Positions 10,910 through 41,780 of a stretch of DNA of 41,780 nucleotides are shown here, one piece after another; the stretch's first letter is position 1; each line of letters opens with the position of its first letter. The notes beneath the pieces are model-generated. The model was not told the origin of the DNA, made no database searches, and saw nothing but the letters and a program-made list of their open reading frames with translations. The stretch spans positions 1 to 41,780 of the forward strand of contig JAJFIV010000002.1 in the NCBI GenBank assembly GCA_021774625.1. The letters are read 5' to 3'. The position numbers were made by a program, and so were the translations under genes. Origin of the DNA: Alphaproteobacteria bacterium (GTDB lineage Bacteria > Pseudomonadota > Alphaproteobacteria > Sphingomonadales > JAKSBY01).

Positions 10910-11980
10910 TCATGGTTTTGGCCGCGGCGTTGAGGCAACGCTGGGCGGCAGGATCGGGTAGAGTATCTTTGGCTGTTCGCCGGTCAGGGCATGCATAAAC
11001 GCCGCCAACTGATCAATCTCCTGCTCGGTCAGCTGGATGCCGATCTGGCTTGAGCCCATGACCGCAACCGCCTGACGCAGGTCCCATGACTTTCCGGAAT
11101 GAAAATAGGGAGGCGTCAATGCGATATTCCGCAGGGTTGGAACCTTGAACACATACTCATCGTTGACCGTCTTGGTCACCTCGAAACGGCCCTTGTCTTC
11201 CGGCGGCAGGAAATCCGCGCCGGGCTTTTCGACAACACCGAAGGGAGCATACATATTGCCGCCCACATTGATGCCATTGTGACAGCCGGCGCATCCCTGA
11301 TCAATAAAGACCGCCAGTCCTTGTTTCTGTTGTTCGCTCAATGCACTGGCATCACCCTGCAGATATCTGTCGAAAGGCGCACCGGGCGTTATCAGGGTCG
11401 CCTCGAAAAGCGCGATGGCGTTACGCACATTGTTAAATGTGATCGGATCCGTCTCGTTGGGAAACGCCCTTGCAAATACCTCCACATAGCCGGGAATGCC
11501 TTTCAGCTGCTCGACCACGTGACTTTCGGTCATTCCCATTTCGATCGGGTTCACCAAAGGGCCTCCCGCCTGTTCCTGCAGGTCCCTGGCCCGGCCATCC
11601 CAGAATTGGGCGGTATTGAAAACCGAATTCAGCACTGTGGGCGCATTGCGGCCGCCGCGTTGCCAGCGATGGCCCAGCGAGGTTTCGAGCAGATCGACGC
11701 CCCCCATGCCGACAACATGGCAGGAGTTGCAGCTGATGGTGTGGCTTTCCGACAGCCGCGTCTCGAAATAGAGCATTTTTCCAAGCTCAACCCTCGCGGG
11801 CGTGCTCGCAATACCTTCAAGCGGCGGCGGAGAAATCGGAATAGGCAGGAACATATCCTGCGCTGTTTGCATCAGTTCGTCAGCCGCCTTTGCCGGACCA
11901 AATCCAGGCACTGTAAGAAGCAATAGAAGAACAATGCCAACCGGCATTTTCGAGCGACATATTTCTCCAGGGCTTTTCAT
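10910..11980 (-). CDS. Di-haem cytochrome c peroxidase (CcpA/MauG family)
   Basis: Periplasmic enzyme of 356 residues, which in this family reduces hydrogen peroxide to water with electrons from small cytochromes. An N-terminal hydrophobic export segment (about 12-33, VGIVLLLLLTVPGFGPAKA) is followed by haem site C84-N-S-C87-H88 and haem site C230-A-G-C233-H234. Between them lies the usual NAPTVLNSVFNTAQFWDGRA region, and later PTLRNIALTPPYFHSGK. GAGGA lies seven bases before the start. Upstream there is a perfect FNR-type site, so expression probably rises when oxygen is low. MauG-like oxidative functions are possible, but the layout favours a peroxidase. Confidence 0.93.
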   Translation of the reverse strand: MKSPGEICRSKMPVGIVLLLLLTVPGFGPAKAADELMQTAQDMFLPIPISPPPLEGIASTPARVELGKMLYFETRLSESHTISCNSCHVVGMGGVDLLETSLGHRWQRGGRNAPTVLNSVFNTAQFWDGRARDLQEQAGGPLVNPIEMGMTESHVVEQLKGIPGYVEVFARAFPNETDPITFNNVRNAIALFEATLITPGAPFDRYLQGDASALSEQQKQGLAVFIDQGCAGCHNGINVGGNMYAPFGVVEKPGADFLPPEDKGRFEVTKTVNDEYVFKVPTLRNIALTPPYFHSGKSWDLRQAVAVMGSSQIGIQLTEQEIDQLAAFMHALTGEQPKILYPILPPSVASTPRPKP

Positions 11981-12288
11981 TTGTTAATCCTCAATAAGTT
12001 CCCCACCGATTTACTGCGCCAACCCATTTGCTTCGGGTCGGTTGAGCGTTGCGTTTGCGGGAAATATTATTTTGCCCTGTGCGCCAAGTCATTGATCTGT
12101 ATCAACTCCATCCTGCGACGGTTGTTCGCCATATCTGCTATTGGCCTAGGCGATATCGCGCGGGCAAGTTTCCATATTCGCGCTATGTAGTAACCGGACC
12201 ATGCTCTGGGCCATCTTAAGCCCATGACATGCATCAGGATGCACCGCGATCTCCGCAGGAGTGGTGCGGGGCGGTCGTAAAGCCGGGT
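11981..12288. other. Intergenic region holding the ccp promoter
   Basis: This 308-base gap between the ccp start and the serine hydrolase stop has no convincing gene. Its main content is the FNR-type promoter at 12064-12105 and a leader of about 76 bases before ccp. The remainder (12106-12288) shows only minor inverted repeats near the end of the hydrolase gene. Confidence 0.5.
12064..12105 (-). promoter_or_regulatory. FNR/FixK-type (class II) promoter of ccp
   Basis: TTGATCTGTATCAA at 12092-12105 matches the FNR/ANR/FixK consensus TTGAT-N4-ATCAA perfectly. On the minus strand TAATAT (12069-12064) lies with its centre 32 bases downstream of the site's centre. This is exactly the spacing of class II FNR promoters (site at -41.5). 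The predicted transcription start is about 12057, which is 77 bases before the ccp ATG. Confidence 0.75.
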
Positions 12289-13836
12289 TCAGTCCCGCTG
12301 AAAAATTCGCCCGCCCCAGTCGATTACAAGTCCCAGCTCTTTGTCGTTGCGAAGGATAAAAAGTTCCGGCGGTGCGCCCCAGGCCCCAATATGCGCCAGA
12401 TAGGCATCCGCACCCGTCCGTATCATCGGTCCTTCTAGTTCGCCAAATGTGACGGTTAGTACCGGCCCCTCCTTGCTGACGGCCATGCCTCCTAACCGGG
12501 CGTCGCTATAGTGTCCAATAAGTGCGGCGGCAGGAAAGGTGTTTTCACCCTGCGGGGCAGAGTCGGTTAAACTTTTGACGTAATCATCATATCGTTTCAC
12601 CCGGTTTGCTTTGGCTGCCGCGATCTTGGTTAACCGGCTTTCTGTCCTGGCCTTCAGATCCTCCCTGCCGAGGAGCGCATCATAAATTGTTGAGGCCAAA
12701 TCGTGGGTCAGATAGCCGCCGAAACCGATTTCATTGGACAGGATTGCAATCCCAATCCCGTGTTCCGGCATAAAGGAAACATGCGTTTCACCCCCAAAGT
12801 GGTGCATGAGAAGATCCCCGTCATAGTCGGCGGAATAGAGCCCAAGACCATGTGCAAACCGTTCATATTCCCCGAATGTCGCCTTGAGCTGAACCTGCCG
12901 TGCCTGCGCCTGTTCGATAGCGCGGCGGGGAAGGGCCTGTTTGCCGTCAATCGCCCCTTTGTCGAGATTGAGGATGATCCAGCGTCCGAGGTCGGAAACC
13001 GTTGAGACGGCACCCCCGGCTGCATGCATCTGGTTATCGGTTTTTGTCGGTGTTTTTATATAATCATCGCGTTCCGCACCGGTATAGGATGTTGCCAGCG
13101 GTCCCTTTGCGGCCTCTGTGATTGATGTAAAACTGTCCCGCATTCCGGCCGGTTTAAAAATTTTCTCGCGAATAAGGTCCCGCCAATTGGATCGGACATG
13201 TCTGCCAATGGCATGGGCTCCCACAATGGGGCCGAAGTTGGAATATCTGAATTTGATATCGGTCGCCTGTGAGAAAGTGTTGATATGCGCCACAAACGCG
13301 CTTTCGGGAAGATTCCCCGGAAAGGCCGTCCGATAATTCAGGCCGGCGTCAAAATAAGGCTGGGTATGGGTAAAGTGCGAGCGGAGCGATATTTGCTCAG
13401 GATTGAGAGGGGCCGGTAATTTCAGGCCCGGCAGATATTCCGATATGGCGGCATCCAGATCAATGGTTCCCTCCTCATGAAGTATCGCCGCCATCATGCC
13501 GGTAAATGACTTGGTGGTTGACTTGAGATAATAGCGGGTTGCGGCATCTGCCTTTTCGCAGGTATCAAGATCGCGAAATCCAAACCCGCGCGCATAAACT
13601 ATTTTCCCGTCTTTAACGACCGAAATGCTGGCTGCCGGCGTTGCATCGGCGCGCTGCAGAAACCGCTCAATCTGCGTTTCCAATTCCTTCGAGATAACGT
13701 CCTTATCGCGAACACCGTCTTCCCGATTGACCCCGGCATCACCGCAGGCGTCAACGGATGGATATCCGGCGTAACTGACGCCTGAATTCACAAAGAATAA
13801 CGTGCCGAAAAGAACAGCGTTGCGTAATTTTATCAT
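12289..13836 (-). CDS. Exported serine hydrolase, beta-lactamase/class C-like
   Basis: Protein of 515 residues with a signal peptide (MIKLRNAVLFGTLFFVNSGVSYA). The penicillin-binding fold shows the three catalytic signatures: S106-T-T-K109, Y198-S-N200, and a late HHFGGETHVSF block standing for the HxG motif. It belongs to the broad Beta-lactamase (PF00144) family, which includes esterases, D-aminopeptidases and class C-like enzymes; a specific substrate cannot be named. A C-terminal domain of about 120 residues after the catalytic part is of unknown role. It is transcribed alone, and AGGAAGG precedes the start. Confidence 0.88.
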   Translation of the reverse strand: MIKLRNAVLFGTLFFVNSGVSYAGYPSVDACGDAGVNREDGVRDKDVISKELETQIERFLQRADATPAASISVVKDGKIVYARGFGFRDLDTCEKADAATRYYLKSTTKSFTGMMAAILHEEGTIDLDAAISEYLPGLKLPAPLNPEQISLRSHFTHTQPYFDAGLNYRTAFPGNLPESAFVAHINTFSQATDIKFRYSNFGPIVGAHAIGRHVRSNWRDLIREKIFKPAGMRDSFTSITEAAKGPLATSYTGAERDDYIKTPTKTDNQMHAAGGAVSTVSDLGRWIILNLDKGAIDGKQALPRRAIEQAQARQVQLKATFGEYERFAHGLGLYSADYDGDLLMHHFGGETHVSFMPEHGIGIAILSNEIGFGGYLTHDLASTIYDALLGREDLKARTESRLTKIAAAKANRVKRYDDYVKSLTDSAPQGENTFPAAALIGHYSDARLGGMAVSKEGPVLTVTFGELEGPMIRTGADAYLAHIGAWGAPPELFILRNDKELGLVIDWGGRIFQRD

Positions 13837-14397: not shown

Positions 14398-15321
14398 ATG
14401 CCGCTTTATTTGCCCATAGCAGAAATGTCCATGAACATTTTCCTGCTGCTGGGCATGGGCGCGGCCGTGGGGTTTTTGTCCGGCATGTTTGGCGTAGGCG
14501 GTGGATTTCTGATGACGCCCCTGCTGATTTTCACCGGCGTTCCGCCGGCGGTTGCGGTGGCGACGGAAGCCAATGAAATCACCGCCGCCTCAGTCTCGGG
14601 TGCGCTGGCCCACTGGCGGCGGGGCGGGGTCGATATCAAAATGGGCGCGGTGCTGATTGCCGGCGGTGCGGTTGGTTCCTTCATCGGCGCGCAGGTTTTT
14701 AAAATATTGCGGGAGCTGGGTCAGGTCGATCTGGTGATTTCTCTTGCCTATGTGCTGTTTCTCGGCAGCGTTGGCGCTTTGATGCTGAAGGAAAGTCTGA
14801 CCGCCATTCAACGGCAGCGCAAGGGGGTGGTGGTTGTCAGCAAGAAGCGGGACCATTCCGGCTGGATCCACCGGTTGCCGTTAAAAATGCGCTTCCGCAA
14901 ATCCCGGCTTTATATCAGCGCCCTGCTGCCGCTAATTATTGGCTGTCTGGTTGGTTTTTTATCGGCGATTATGGGGGTGGGCGGCGGATTTATCATGGTG
15001 CCCGCCATGATCTATATCCTGGGCATGCCGACCAATGTGGTGGTGGGAACGTCGCTTTTTCAGATTATTTTTGTCACCGCCAGCGTGACCTTCCTGCATT
15101 CGGTCAACACGCAGACGGTGGATATTGTCATGGCGGTCCTTTTGCTGACGGGCGCTGTCATTGGTGCACAGATTGGCGCCCGGGCCGGTCTGAAACTGAA
15201 AGGCGAACAGCTGCGCGCCATTTTGGCGCTGATCGTGCTCGGGGTGGGCGTTCGCATGGCTTACGGGCTGATTGTCAGACCCGGCGATCTTTATTCCATC
15301 TCACCGGTGCTGGGGTCATGA
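14398..15321 (+). CDS. TauE/SafE-family anion exporter
   Basis: Inner membrane transporter of 307 residues. Two homologous halves each carry the family repeat: FLSGMFGVGGGFLMTPLLIF near residue 30 and FLSAIMGVGGGFIMVPAMIY near residue 190. About eight hydrophobic helices are seen, with a basic cytoplasmic loop around residues 140-165 (RQRKGVVVVSKKRDHSG). The family moves sulfite, sulfoacetate or other organosulfur anions. The next gene starts inside this stop codon (ATGA) and encodes a TIGR02186 protein, a pairing widespread in alphaproteobacteria. The substrate is unknown. Confidence 0.92.
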   Translation: MPLYLPIAEMSMNIFLLLGMGAAVGFLSGMFGVGGGFLMTPLLIFTGVPPAVAVATEANEITAASVSGALAHWRRGGVDIKMGAVLIAGGAVGSFIGAQVFKILRELGQVDLVISLAYVLFLGSVGALMLKESLTAIQRQRKGVVVVSKKRDHSGWIHRLPLKMRFRKSRLYISALLPLIIGCLVGFLSAIMGVGGGFIMVPAMIYILGMPTNVVVGTSLFQIIFVTASVTFLHSVNTQTVDIVMAVLLLTGAVIGAQIGARAGLKLKGEQLRAILALIVLGVGVRMAYGLIVRPGDLYSISPVLGS

Positions 15322-30986: not shown

Positions 30987-31654
30987 AACCAGCTGCAGGT
31001 CTCGGAAAAATCCTTTTTGGTCAGGGTTGGCACCATGGCATCCTCCGCAGGATGACCGGCCACCACGATCATGATCGCCCGTTCATTCTTTGGCCGCCCC
31101 AGCAGATCTCGCAAAAATCCCATCGGGCTGGGGGTATGGGTCAGGGTGGCAAGCCCGGCGATATGCAGGGCGGCTATCAGGAACCCGGTGGCAAGCCCGG
31201 CGCTTTCCTGCACATAATAATGTTTGCTTCGCTTCCCTGTTTTGGGGTCAAGGGCATAATTCTGCTGGAAACAGACGATCAGATAGGGAGCCGTTTCGAG
31301 AAAGGGTTTGGAGGAATCGGTTCCGAGATGCGCGAGATCCTTCAGCCATTCCTCGCCGGCCCGGCTTTCGTAAAATTCCTTTTCTTCAATTTCCGCGGCT
31401 TCCCTGATTTTTTTCTTCACTGCCGGATCGGATACGATGGCAAAATGCCAGGGCTGTTTGTTGGCGCCGGACGGGGCTGTGTTGGCGGCTTTGACGGCCT
31501 CCGCGATAATATCTTTCGGGACCGGCTGACCGGAAAAGAACCGGATGGTCCGCCGCCGCTCCATAAAGGTGCGGAATTCCGTCACTCTTTGCCGCCGCTC
31601 GGCTTCGGAAAAGGCAGGAAAATCGGTCAGCGGAACAGGCTGATAAGCACCCAT
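30983..31654 (-). CDS. Nitroreductase-family FMN oxidoreductase
   Basis: 223 residues, MGAYQPVPLTDFPAFSEAER onward. FMN-binding landmarks are RRRTIRFFSGQPVPKDII, AANTAPSGANKQPWHFAIVS and the late HTPSPMGFLRDLLGRPKNER block. It is close to the BluB/iodotyrosine deiodinase-like branch, where TAPSGANKQPWHF is characteristic, but no cobalamin genes are nearby and the substrate is not certain. The ATG at 31654 fits the family start; a longer open frame to 32020 overlaps the divergent gene and lacks family features. Confidence 0.88.
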   Translation of the reverse strand: MGAYQPVPLTDFPAFSEAERRQRVTEFRTFMERRRTIRFFSGQPVPKDIIAEAVKAANTAPSGANKQPWHFAIVSDPAVKKKIREAAEIEEKEFYESRAGEEWLKDLAHLGTDSSKPFLETAPYLIVCFQQNYALDPKTGKRSKHYYVQESAGLATGFLIAALHIAGLATLTHTPSPMGFLRDLLGRPKNERAIMIVVAGHPAEDAMVPTLTKKDFSETCSWF

Positions 31655-35347: not shown

Positions 35348-35845
35348 GTGACTGCAGCGCAGATGGACGATAGAACCGGTCTTCAGGATGAAGTTTCAGT
35401 CCGGCCGCCGCAGGAACAGTTCTATTTATGGGCGATTCGTATCTGGATGCGGGGGCATTGGGCGGGACAATCAGTGGACGGGATTTTAAGAAAGGGCTTT
35501 GCCGGAATGTATGCGGCGGATGCGCTGTCAGGCTTTGACGCTCTGATGCATTGTATTACGGCAAGCTGGCACCGGCCGTTGGATATCACCTGTGCCTGCC
35601 GCCGGTTTTTAACCGGGGATGAAGTTTACCTGCTGGATATGATCCGCCTTGCGCATCAGCGCCCGCCGTCCGATTATCCGGCAGGCCTTTTGGACTATGC
35701 GTTTAGAGCCAGTGCCCGGCAATCCCTGATCCTGCATCTTTACCAGTTCATGCGGGATTTTGACCATGCTGTTACCACGTTCCGAAAGCCGGGCGGGGCT
35801 GTGTCCTCCGGTTATCAGTTTCCCATCCGTGCATCCGTTCATTGA
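35348..35845 (+). CDS. Hypothetical protein behind a Fur box
   Basis: 165 residues, starting with GTG at 35348 after GAGAGGA (seven bases spacing). It is not recognised. It has no signal peptide or membrane helix and appears mainly helical, with several aromatic-rich parts: FYLWAIRIWMRGHWAGQS, AADALSGFDALMHCITASWH, DITCACRRFLTGDEVYLLDM and LILHLYQFMRDFDHA. Three Cys and many His residues might allow metal or haem binding, but no known site is visible. The Fur-like site upstream suggests synthesis under iron limitation. Its last seven bases overlap the convergent lutC end. Confidence 0.75.
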   Translation: MTAAQMDDRTGLQDEVSVRPPQEQFYLWAIRIWMRGHWAGQSVDGILRKGFAGMYAADALSGFDALMHCITASWHRPLDITCACRRFLTGDEVYLLDMIRLAHQRPPSDYPAGLLDYAFRASARQSLILHLYQFMRDFDHAVTTFRKPGGAVSSGYQFPIRASVH

Positions 35846-36465
35846 TCCCCGGTCAGAATAATGTGCAGATGCTTCGGCCCGTGAGCCCCCAGATACATGG
35901 TTTGTTCAATATCGCCGGTCCGCGAGGGACCGGAAATAAAATTGACCGCCCGCGGCATATGCGCCGGATTAAGCCTCTGCCAGATATCTTCATAGCCGCC
36001 GACGATCCGGTCCTCACTCAGGATAGCAATCTCAATTTCCGGGGCGAAGTTCAAAAGGACCGGTGTTTTGGGACCTGAAAAAAAGGCCAGGGTCCCGGTT
36101 TCAGCGATGCCAAAGGCGGGTTCGGAAAGACTGACCCGGTCGCCCTCCCCTGCCGTGCAAAAGGCGACATCCAGTGTTGTCCAGTCCATCCCCTTCAGAG
36201 CCGGCGCCGCCACCGCCTGCAGCGGCGCATTCAGGGTCCGGAGATAATCGCAGACGGCCCCCTCGACGGATTGTCTGTCCGCGAGATGCTCGATGGTCGC
36301 TTTATGGGCCTTGGATTGGGCGATGAAGCGGGCAATCCGCTCCTCGCGGCTGCCTTTTGCGACGGCGGGAGACGGCCAGTTTCGCGGGGTGGCCAGTTCC
36401 GGCTTTTCCCGGTGTGATATGCGGTTTCGGATATGGGCCAGAAAGGTCTGTCTGTCCGTGGTCAT
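35839..36465 (-). CDS. lutC: Lactate utilization protein C (LUD domain)
   Basis: 208-residue LUD-domain protein, third subunit gene of the LutABC L-lactate oxidation complex. Family blocks are DVAFCTAGEGDRVSLSEPAF, IAETGTLAFFSGPKTPVLLN and NFISGPSRTGDIEQTMYLGA, ending GPKHLHIILTGD. I take the ATG at 36465, which overlaps the lutB stop (ATGA); a start at 36486 would lie further inside lutB. LutC has no cofactor motif and its precise role in the complex is not settled. Confidence 0.92.
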   Translation of the reverse strand: MTTDRQTFLAHIRNRISHREKPELATPRNWPSPAVAKGSREERIARFIAQSKAHKATIEHLADRQSVEGAVCDYLRTLNAPLQAVAAPALKGMDWTTLDVAFCTAGEGDRVSLSEPAFGIAETGTLAFFSGPKTPVLLNFAPEIEIAILSEDRIVGGYEDIWQRLNPAHMPRAVNFISGPSRTGDIEQTMYLGAHGPKHLHIILTGDQ

Positions 36466-37856
36466 GATCCGCCCCGCTTTTGCCATTGCGCATGAAAGCT
36501 TCTTCCTTCCGGTTTCGGGAAGTCACGGGCATCGGTCCAGCCTTTGACAAAGGGCGGCGGGCTTTTCTTCAACCCCCAGGCAGCGAAGGCGGCAAACCTG
36601 CGGTAGAGCCGGGGCCTTAAGGCAAGGAATGCCCAGAGTTTCAGGGTCATGCGGATAAAGAACGGCGTAATATTTTTCTCAAACGCCTGGTTACGCCAGT
36701 GGCGGAAGATCATCGGCAGCGGGATTTTTACCGGACAGACCGCTTCGCAGGCGCCGCAGAAAGTGGACGCTTCCGGCAGATGCCGGCTTTCCTTCAGGCC
36801 GATCAGGGCCGGATTCAGGGCCGCGCCGATGGGGCCGGGATAGACCCAGCCATAGGCATGACCGCCGACGGCTCCATAAACCGGACAATGGTTCATGCAG
36901 GCGCCGCATTTGATGCAGCGGAGCAGATCCTGCTGTTCTGTGCCCAGCAAAGCGGACCGCCCGCCATCCAGAAGAACCACATGAAAATTTTCCGGGCCAT
37001 CAAGATCATCTTTCCGTTTCGGTCCCGAAACAAGGGTCGTGTAAACCGACATGGTCTGCCCGGTGGCGGAGCGGGCGAGCAGGCGCATTAAAACGGTCAT
37101 ATCAGCGAGTGTCGGCACCATCTTTTCGATGCTGGTAATGACGATATGGGTATTCGGGCAGGTCATGGTCAGGTCGCCATTGCCTTCATTGGTGACGATC
37201 ACCGCCGATCCGCCTTCGGCCACCAGAAAATTTGCCCCGGTAATGCCGACATCGGCAGCGAAATATTTTTCGCGCAAAATCTGCCGCGCCTCCGCAACCA
37301 GCGCCTCGCCCTCTTCCTGCCGCTCATCGAATCCCAGGGGGGTATGGTGTTCCAAGAACAGGTCCGAGACCTGATCCTTTGTTTTATGCAGGGCCGGACC
37401 GATAATGTGGCTCGGCGGTTCCTTGGCCAGTTGCAGGATATATTCGCCGAGATCGGTCTCGATGGGGGTGATGCCGGCCGCTTCCAGCGCCTCATTGAGG
37501 GCGATTTCCTCGCCGACCATGGATTTGCCTTTGGTGACGGTTCTCGCGCCCTGTTTCCGGCAGATGGCGACGACCGTTTCCCGGGCTTCCCGGGCGGTGC
37601 GGCAGAAATGGACATGACCGCCCGCCTCTTCCACCCTGTCGGTAAATTGTTCCAGATAACGGTCCAGATGGGCAAGGGTATGATCCTTGATGAGGACGGC
37701 AGCCTCCCGCAGCGCCTCGAATTCCGGCAAGGCAGCCACGGCCTTTCGCCGCTTTTCCGGAAAGCCCGTGGCGAAAAGTTTTAACGCATCCTGTAAGGTT
37801 TCATCCGCCAGGGCGTCTTTTGCGGCAGACCGGAAGGCATGGCTTTTAGGGCGCAT
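36462..37856 (-). CDS. lutB: Lactate utilization iron-sulfur protein B
   Basis: 464-residue subunit with an N-terminal LUD domain (GARTVTKGKSMVGEEIALNE, ITGANFLVAEGGSAVIVTNE) and two [4Fe-4S] motifs, CIKCGACMNHCPVYGAVGG near residue 305 and CGACEAVCPVKIPLP near residue 360. It takes part in oxidation of L-lactate to pyruvate with LutA and LutC. The ATG at 37856 overlaps the lutA end by 11 bases. A longer frame to 37931 would sit inside lutA and is less likely. Confidence 0.94.
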   Translation of the reverse strand: MRPKSHAFRSAAKDALADETLQDALKLFATGFPEKRRKAVAALPEFEALREAAVLIKDHTLAHLDRYLEQFTDRVEEAGGHVHFCRTAREARETVVAICRKQGARTVTKGKSMVGEEIALNEALEAAGITPIETDLGEYILQLAKEPPSHIIGPALHKTKDQVSDLFLEHHTPLGFDERQEEGEALVAEARQILREKYFAADVGITGANFLVAEGGSAVIVTNEGNGDLTMTCPNTHIVITSIEKMVPTLADMTVLMRLLARSATGQTMSVYTTLVSGPKRKDDLDGPENFHVVLLDGGRSALLGTEQQDLLRCIKCGACMNHCPVYGAVGGHAYGWVYPGPIGAALNPALIGLKESRHLPEASTFCGACEAVCPVKIPLPMIFRHWRNQAFEKNITPFFIRMTLKLWAFLALRPRLYRRFAAFAAWGLKKSPPPFVKGWTDARDFPKPEGRSFHAQWQKRGGS

Positions 37857-38580
37857 CCAAAATCTCCGCCAGCAATTCGGCAATGTGCCTGACCTTGATA
37901 TCCGATCCCAGGCGTTTAAGCCGGCCTTCAATATTCATCAGGCACCCAAAGTCGCAGGAGGTCACGACCTCTGCTCCGCTGGCCTGAATAGCGGCGGCCT
38001 TTTTATCCGCCATCTGGCCGGAAATGTCGCCATATTTGACCGAAAACAGCCCGCCAAAGCCACAGCATCTGTCACTATTTTCAATTTCCGTTAAAGGCAA
38101 AAGCTGCCGTGGTTGGCGCTGGACACCAAGCTCACGAAGGGCGGAACAGGAATCATGCATGGCGATGCGTCTGGCCGGCTGCGGGATTTTCATTTCCAGC
38201 TTCACCGCATCAACCAGAAATTCTGTCAGCTCAAAGCTCTTTTTCGCCAGGTTTTCAGCTCTCTCCCGCCATGCTTTATTCGTCTTGACGATCTCGGGAT
38301 AGTGGCAGCGGAGCATGCCGATACAGGATCCGGACGGTGCCACCACATAATCGAACGCCTCGAATGTTTCGATCACTGTTTTGGCGATTTTTTCCGCGCT
38401 TTTCCGGTCCCCCGCGTTATAGGCCGGCTGGCCGCAGCAGGTCTGGGTATCGGGCACACTTACGGCGCAGCCAGCCATTTCCAGCAGCCGGAGCGTTGCG
38501 AAGGCGGCAGACGGACGGAACAAATCAATCAGGCAGGTAACAAACAATCCCACGGATGGTTTTTTTGTAACGGTATCCAC
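37846..38580 (-). CDS. lutA: Lactate utilization protein A (CCG-domain)
   Basis: 244-residue subunit of the L-lactate oxidising complex with two cysteine-rich CCG domains: TCCGQPAYNAGDRKSAEKIA near residue 45 and DRCCGFGGLFSVKYGDISGQ near residue 170. These ligate Fe-S clusters in the family, as in the heterodisulfide reductase and GlpC/GlcF proteins. The start is GTG at 38580 with GTGAGG close upstream; the nearby ATG is out of frame. It is first in lutABC. No GntR-type LutR gene is adjacent. Confidence 0.93.
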   Translation of the reverse strand: MDTVTKKPSVGLFVTCLIDLFRPSAAFATLRLLEMAGCAVSVPDTQTCCGQPAYNAGDRKSAEKIAKTVIETFEAFDYVVAPSGSCIGMLRCHYPEIVKTNKAWRERAENLAKKSFELTEFLVDAVKLEMKIPQPARRIAMHDSCSALRELGVQRQPRQLLPLTEIENSDRCCGFGGLFSVKYGDISGQMADKKAAAIQASGAEVVTSCDFGCLMNIEGRLKRLGSDIKVRHIAELLAEILDAP

Positions 38581-41330: not shown

Positions 41331-41407
41331 TGGTGATCCCGACTGGATTTGAACCAGTGACCCCCAGATTAGGAATCTGGTGCTCTATCCAGCTGAGCTA
41401 CGGGACC
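41331..41407 (-). tRNA. tRNA-Arg (CCT anticodon)
   Basis: A 77-nt cloverleaf is read on the minus strand from GGTCCCG (41407-41401) to CGGGATC-ACCA (41331). The D-arm GCTCAGCTGGATAGAGC, the anticodon arm CCAGA-TTCCTAA-TCTGG with anticodon CCT, and the T-arm ACTGG-TTCAAAT-CCAGT are all present. The 3' CCA is encoded. The D-loop and anticodon identify a rare-codon (AGG) arginine tRNA. Confidence 0.96.
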
Positions 41408-41597
41408 AAGAAAGTTTACGCCGCCAACTATTACAAAGAAAAAGCGGTCCGGAGCAATAGCAAAGACGGACAAGCCCCCACCCCGCCGGGTTGAGCCGCG
41501 GCCGCAGGCATGGCGCGCGAACCATTGCAACTCGGCGCTGATCCTGAACAGTTTGGGCGCAGTGAAGACAAAACATCGGTGGTTTCAGCGAGTAAGA

Positions 41598-41642
41598 TGG
41601 TGCCCATAGTAAGATTCGAACTTACGACCTCTCCCTTACCAA
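41598..41642 (-). other. tRNA-Thr(GGT) 3' fragment, likely att site
   Basis: On the minus strand 45 nt, from TTGGTAAGGGAG to TTACTATGGGCACCA, equal the 3' part of a tRNA-Thr(GGT): the full anticodon loop TTGGTAA, the 3' anticodon stem GGGAG, variable AGGTC, T-arm GTAAG-TTCGAAT-CTTAC, acceptor strand TATGGGC and ACCA. Just 5' of the loop the expected CTCCC is replaced by GATCCG, and no D-arm follows. This is how the chromosomal end of a tRNA-integrated element looks. By orientation the element, and the intact tRNA, should lie to the right of 41642. Confidence 0.75.
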
Positions 41643-41780
41643 CGGATCAGGTGAGCGCATATTTGGCGGTTTTACTGGGGTTTCCGGACATGTAGTTGCC
41701 GGAACTTTCGTGAACTTGACCCAACTCTGTCCCGTTTCACGGCAAATTCACGGCAAATCCAGCGGCGGGGTGAGTGAGTG
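41643..41780. other. Presumed start of an integrated element
   Basis: The last 138 bases follow the tRNA-Thr fragment. No gene can be called: all frames are short or run off the edge. The stretch holds a tandem 11-bp repeat. If the att interpretation is right, this is element DNA, not original chromosome. Confidence 0.4.
41736..41757 (+). repeat. Tandem 11-bp repeat (two copies)
   Basis: TTCACGGCAAA occurs twice head to tail at 41736-41746 and 41747-41757, about 95 bases from the tRNA-Thr fragment. Short direct repeats near an att core can be integrase arm-type sites; this is only a suggestion. Confidence 0.5.

Follow-up and report, generated by a model that had tools for sequence, protein, structure and literature searches.

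The window analysed here, a stretch of 41,780 nucleotides that makes up the whole of contig C2 in an alphaproteobacterial genome of 2.99 Mb and 35 contigs, carries near its right-hand end what reads as part of a tRNA gene. The question that this locus raises is where the fragment came from and to what the DNA beyond it belongs. As its reverse complement (TTGGTAAGGGAGAGGTCGTAAGTTCGAATCTTACTATGGGCACCA), the fragment comprises the full 7-nt anticodon loop (TTGGTAA), the 3′ strand of the anticodon stem, the variable loop, the T arm, the 3′ strand of the acceptor stem and CCA. The 5′ half of tRNA-Thr is absent, since ARAGORN makes no tRNA call at 41598-41642, and the sequence breaks between tRNA positions 31 and 32, at the 5′ edge of the anticodon loop. 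The original prediction was that such a fragment, lacking its D-arm and 5′ half, marks the distal end of an element that had integrated at a tRNA gene by a crossover in the anticodon loop, with element DNA starting at about 41643 and running to the right. Each of these points agrees with what was found in the rest of the genome, and it is very probable that the fragment is the displaced end of the original chromosomal tRNA-Thr gene and the attR of an integrated island. The features are listed in Table 1.

Table 1. Features at the right-hand end of the window and at the partner site on contig C24
Feature	Position	Strand	Basis or remarks
tRNA-Arg(CCT), intact; ordinary chromosomal neighbour outside the element	41331..41407	-	ARAGORN
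Remnant of the 3′ end of an integrase gene, chromosome side of attR	41564..41597	+	EDKTSVVSASKM vs EDKTSVISVGKV of the C24 integrase
attR core, 3′ fragment of tRNA-Thr(GGT), anticodon loop to CCA	41598..41642	-	Exact 45-nt match to C24:20313-20357
Right end of the integrated island (P′ side of attP), to contig end	41643..41780	+	Identity to C24, similarity to C32 and C33
Stranded codons of the integrase C-terminal tail, DQVSAYLAVLLGFPDM, stop TAG at 41693-41695	41645..41695	+	Translations; in frame with the tRNA antisense
P′ arm-type tandem repeat, TTCACGGCAAAT / TCACGGCAAATC	41736..41759	+	Partner of the repeat at C24:20426-20447
Intact tRNA-Thr(GGT), attL	C24:20283-20357		Its 45-nt 3′ part is C24:20313-20357

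The partner site and the integration history

A search of the whole genome with the 45-mer, allowing up to three mismatches, finds exactly two copies, the one in the window and one inside an intact tRNA-Thr(GGT) gene on contig C24, which are identical at all 45 positions. The reversed control pattern gives no match in the same search, so the identity is not a chance one. The gene on C24 is the only intact tRNA-Thr(GGT) in the genome and has an attL-type orientation. Rather than lying far from any mobility gene, it is directly adjoined by one: a convergent tyrosine integrase gene begins immediately behind its CCA and overlaps the tRNA. The integrase open frame is 458 aa long, and a match to phrog_1 (PHROG 1 integrases) spans residues 19-403 with an E value of 3.6e-18; the phrog_1 integrase matches are at 3.6e-18 and 3.9e-22. 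The protein has no match in Pfam or NCBIfam, and a sequence search for a solved structure gave none. By its profile match over the catalytic domain it is classed as a predicted tyrosine recombinase. As it stands in the integrated gene, this frame takes in all of the matched domain and is not split.

The dcd gene lies a few hundred bases from the intact tRNA-Thr. C24 therefore holds the ancestral position of this tRNA, because dcd and tRNA-Thr(GGT) are also neighbours in 12 of the 20 other genomes of the order that yielded a dcd locus. At the fragment, orientation places the chromosome on the downstream side (left, below 41598) and the element on the upstream side (right, from 41643). The orientations of the fragment and the intact gene fit a tRNA-integrated island, in which the two are expected in the correct order on one replicon at a distance of 2-200 kb, but C24 and C2 are separate contigs. 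We infer that they carry the two ends of one island which the assembly did not join.

Several features are observed: the two copies of the core and how they are oriented, the integrase, arm repeats that are paired and equally spaced, and the same layout at a tRNA-Val gene. From them we infer the following events. A circular island would have carried an attP in which a copy of the tRNA 3′ half lay between tandem arm-type repeats. The tyrosine integrase would have recombined this site with the chromosomal tRNA-Thr(GGT) in the anticodon-loop region, which would have restored a complete tRNA gene next to the integrase (attL) and left the old 3′ half at the far end (attR, 41598-41642). The integrase encoded by the circle would end with the tail DQVSAYLAVLLGFPDM, and the integrated one ends in the tRNA 5′ half (SPLPRECSTPELYGR). 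The point at which attL and attR diverge agrees with a crossover in the anticodon loop, as originally predicted, both in this genome (tRNA-Thr and tRNA-Val) and in genome G575 (tRNA-Val).

The site seems to have been used before. Similarity to C24 runs about 34 nt past the CCA, giving 83 nt at 90% identity overall (window 41564-41646), and a tblastn match of the integrase covers C2:41543-41638 at 69%. The remnant on the chromosome side is, judging by this similarity, probably the trace of an older element of the same family at the site. It also lends some weight to reading the fragment as an old scar, the only attR left of a decayed or deleted element that has nothing to do with the C24 integrase, as does the presence in the genome of several right-end copies that lack tRNA fragments. 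A scar of this kind is improbable, since the core is identical at 45 of 45 positions and the P′ arm repeat is of the Thr-specific type, matching the repeat in the C24 integrase gene, and not of the Val type. Far less probable still, to the point of being negligible, is a tRNA pseudogene or a chance similarity without any mobile element: a site with no tRNA call would suit it, but the exact identity over 45 nt, the empty control search and the paired attL with its integrase do not. The fragment was also considered as a split tRNA gene, and this reading was rejected.

Neither an empty site nor a circular form was found in database searches and in a search of dcd neighbourhoods. The search for an empty site used the dcd neighbourhood together with the kynureninase and phospholipase D genes of the window. 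In one Sphingomonas MAG it yielded a kynureninase gene beside dcd, but on the flank opposite to the one where the tRNA would lie, which does not establish an empty tRNA-Thr site. The one other genome of the family has a dcd locus without tRNA-Thr in the flank examined, and no relative among those searched is close enough for this comparison.

Right ends, arm repeats and sister islands

The DNA to the right of the fragment behaves as part of an element. The 139 bases at window 41642-41780 are 100% identical to C24:31138-31276, and the right end is similar to sequences at C32:185147, C32:186503 and C33:338471, in two other islands. The window stops at 41780 because contig C2 stops there, and C24 stops at 31301; the same 139 bases lie near both contig ends. 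The copy on C24 is inverted relative to the expected attR and carries no tRNA fragment, and for this reason the interior of the Thr island may be rearranged. Either an inverted duplication or a second insertion would account for the two contig ends. C24, C32 and C33 all hold right-end copies that lack tRNA fragments, and these suggest that insertion took place repeatedly, with deletion or rearrangement afterwards. At C24:31138-31301 (L011:16139-16302) the copy adjoins the start of a DUF3800 gene, which may be truncated. C24 itself ends in a sequence that resembles a tRNA T arm (GGTTCAAATCCC).

Short tandem repeats tie the two ends of the Thr island to each other. The 3′ end of the integrase gene contains the repeat TTCACGGCAAAC TCACGGCAAA at C24:20426-20447, and the right end in the window carries its partner, which agrees with the assignment of this DNA to the element. 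In the tRNA-Val(GAC) island on contig C32, the integrase gene has TCCATTGCAAA TCCATTGCAA and the right end has TTCATTGCAAA TTCATTGCAA. The repeat is thus of the type TTCACGGCAAA in the Thr island and TTCATTGCAAA in the Val island, so that, when the arm sequences are compared, the repeats agree inside each island and differ across islands. Their spacing is almost constant: the left (P) arm lies 135 and 136 nt from the end of the core in the Thr and Val islands, respectively, and the right (P′) arm lies 93 nt from the core end in both. The repeats are candidate arm-type binding sites of the integrase, a reading that is based on the general plan of lambda-like attP sites.

The Val island shows the same layout on a single contig. 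It occupies C32:171.7-186.6 kb and consists of an intact tRNA-Val, an integrase gene, type I restriction genes and the right end, in which an exact tRNA-Val 3′ fragment is found from C32:186578 onwards; the tRNA and the fragment are in the correct order about 15 kb apart. The Thr and Val integrases are 76% identical in amino-acid sequence, and the nucleotide identity of their genes ranges from 63 to 93% by 100-nt window over the coding part. The two right ends on C32, at 185147 and 186503, have the same orientation and stand 1.36 kb apart with a 278-aa ORF between them, and the inner one has no tRNA fragment. The arrangement resembles a tandem island that has lost its middle junction by deletion. 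A third, eroded island is located at tRNA-Ala(CGC) on contig C33, where an integrase gene truncated at its N-terminal end lies at 328.6 kb and a right end without a tRNA-Ala fragment at 338.47 kb. The G+C content is 0.531 in the Thr element and 0.487 in the Val element, compared with 0.549-0.565 in the flanks.

Relatives outside this genome are few and distant. When the integrase is aligned against 385 genomes of the class, only this genome is found at an E value of 1e-30, and at 1e-9 four others appear, all distant. No relatives occur in the genome-contig, viral-contig and phage collections, and the plasmid collection holds only two, at 27% identity. In genome G575, a distant homologue overlaps a tRNA-Val gene in the same frame, with an attR about 61 kb away. 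A similar island architecture is seen in an unrelated genome of the class (L074, G734:C215), where a tRNA-Val region on the minus strand, near 14833 and 19951, contains both an integrase homologue and a 3′ fragment that is degenerate.

An integrase frame that crosses the attachment site

The integrase frame does not stop at the core. In attL it runs antisense through the 3′ half of tRNA-Thr and ends inside the 5′ half (SPLPRECSTPELYGR; ...KVVPIVRFELTTSPLPRECSTPELYGR), and in attR the same frame leaves the tRNA-Thr fragment and goes on as ...SPLPTDQVSAYLAVLLGFPDM-stop. The corresponding ends at tRNA-Val are ...GKMVGAAGIEPATPTMST-stop in attL and ...GKMVGAAGIEPATPTMSKDKINAYLAVLLGFPDM-stop in attR. 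The translations of attL and attR at both tRNAs thus have a frame that crosses attP, and on the integrase side this frame is identical through three different tRNAs. Since it continues out of the tRNA fragment in attR, the integrase of the excised circle would bear the tail DQVSAYLAVLLGFPDM, and since it runs across attP, integration changes the C-terminus of the integrase.

Five copies of the right end retain the tail, and in its last 12 codons and the stop all changes are silent. Among the four distinct versions, 9 of the 51 columns vary, and six of these are third positions of codons. The four variable columns nearest the stop all fall on third positions, with silent or stop-to-stop changes, although three of these come from one copy. 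Beyond the stop, variation affects 27 of 45 columns when they are counted without gaps, a figure that one small indel inflates. The pattern suggests that the tail is selected as a protein sequence, on the strength of very few substitutions in one genome. It is tentatively suggested that, in a family of alphaproteobacterial defence islands, a functional C-terminal tail is encoded beyond attP, present only in the circle and lost on integration, so that the integrase senses and sets its own integration state at several tRNAs. With equal reserve, and by analogy with phage Mx8, the exchange of tails might alter integrase activity, for example by favouring integration in the circle and leaving an altered enzyme after insertion.

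Another possibility, also to be held with some doubt, is that the segment between the core and the P′ arm is conserved as DNA, with sites for the integrase, an excisionase or a bending protein, and that the open frame is incidental and the C-terminus is swapped without consequence. This would bear on the tail only and would leave the identification of attR as it is. The right ends of the Thr, Val and Ala islands share an identical run of 38 bases even though the integrase genes have diverged, and such a run also fits a DNA site; open frames of 18 codons are no rarity in random sequence. In G575 the homologue carries a different, unrelated short tail, its frame ending after SRKWTTR, from which it follows that the overlap with the tRNA recurs and the tail does not. 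A conserved DNA site, however, does not readily fit the fall in conservation after the stop codon, the third-position changes in the last four variable columns or the constancy of the integrase-side frame through three tRNAs. RNA structure in the tail region is no better than in shuffled sequences (z 0.23). A degenerate pattern of the tail (AYLAVLLGFPDM, up to three mismatches) matched this genome only among 396 genomes of the order, and the exact pattern had no match in viral contigs.

Cargo and comparison with known systems

Within its visible 10.8 kb the Thr island has genes for two Fic proteins, an IS transposase, one protein each of ShosT-like and ShosA-like type and a DUF3800 protein; a Pfam scan of the ten ORFs in this stretch found no virion structural genes. 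Of the two Fic proteins, at L011:8760-9929 and 11537-12745, the first is a strong SoFic match, and the IS transposase (DDE_Tnp_IS240) lies between the two. The ShosT-like phosphoribosyltransferase gene and the ShosA-like gene of the DprA family adjoin each other at L011:13201-14527 (C24:28200-29526) and, from their profile matches, are a probable ShosTA defence pair. In the Val island, the type I restriction-modification genes occupy L031:4760-13271 (C32), where a RhuM-like gene separates the methylase gene from the specificity gene. PADLOC profiles matched in the cargo are SoFic, ShosT, ShosA, REase_I, MTase_I and Specificity_I. One type of integrase is thus associated with different cargo at different tRNAs (SoFic and ShosT/ShosA at Thr, type I restriction at Val), and the islands carry candidate anti-phage genes. 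This cargo resembles that of mobile defence islands with ShosTA, SoFic or type I restriction.

The type of island is already known. Islander (PMC4383910) catalogues 2083 islands in tRNA genes, with sites centred on the anticodon, and notes that some integrases, among them those of Mx8 and SSV, extend across attP. Islands of this class share with the present one an intact tRNA beside a tyrosine integrase, a displaced 3′ fragment at the far end and an anticodon-centred attP; unlike them, the Thr island has its ends on separate contigs. In Myxococcus phage Mx8, according to a review (PMC6070905, citing Tojo 1996 and Magrini 1999), attP lies inside the coding sequence of the integrase, towards its 3′ end, and integration gives a recombinant int gene with a new 3′ end, whose enzyme keeps activity but has a modified specificity. 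The likeness, a frame that crosses attP and a C-terminus that is replaced on integration, is at the level of the reading frame only, and the present islands are an alphaproteobacterial family and not a Myxococcus phage. The suicidal integrases of the archaeal SSV type also have a gene that spans attP and is altered by integration, but there integration splits the gene (PMC8371274), while here the catalytic domain stays intact and the exchange affects just the C-terminal tail. An SSV-type suicidal integrase was rejected, as the 458-aa frame of the integrated gene holds the entire domain (19-403).

The analysis precisely locates one boundary of a mobile island that carries candidate anti-phage genes (ShosTA-like and SoFic), and its sister islands share the attachment architecture, with matched arm repeats, at other tRNA genes. 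The exchange of the integrase tail is a mildly unusual and modestly interesting feature. The tail-exchanging integrase offers a second, non-myxobacterial system in which to probe the overlap of attP with the integrase gene and the control of direction; if the tail does nothing, this is an ordinary tRNA-inserted island. Elsewhere in the window, genes at 36462-38580 and 35839-36486 resemble, by reading only, the three-gene lactate utilisation operon LutABC.
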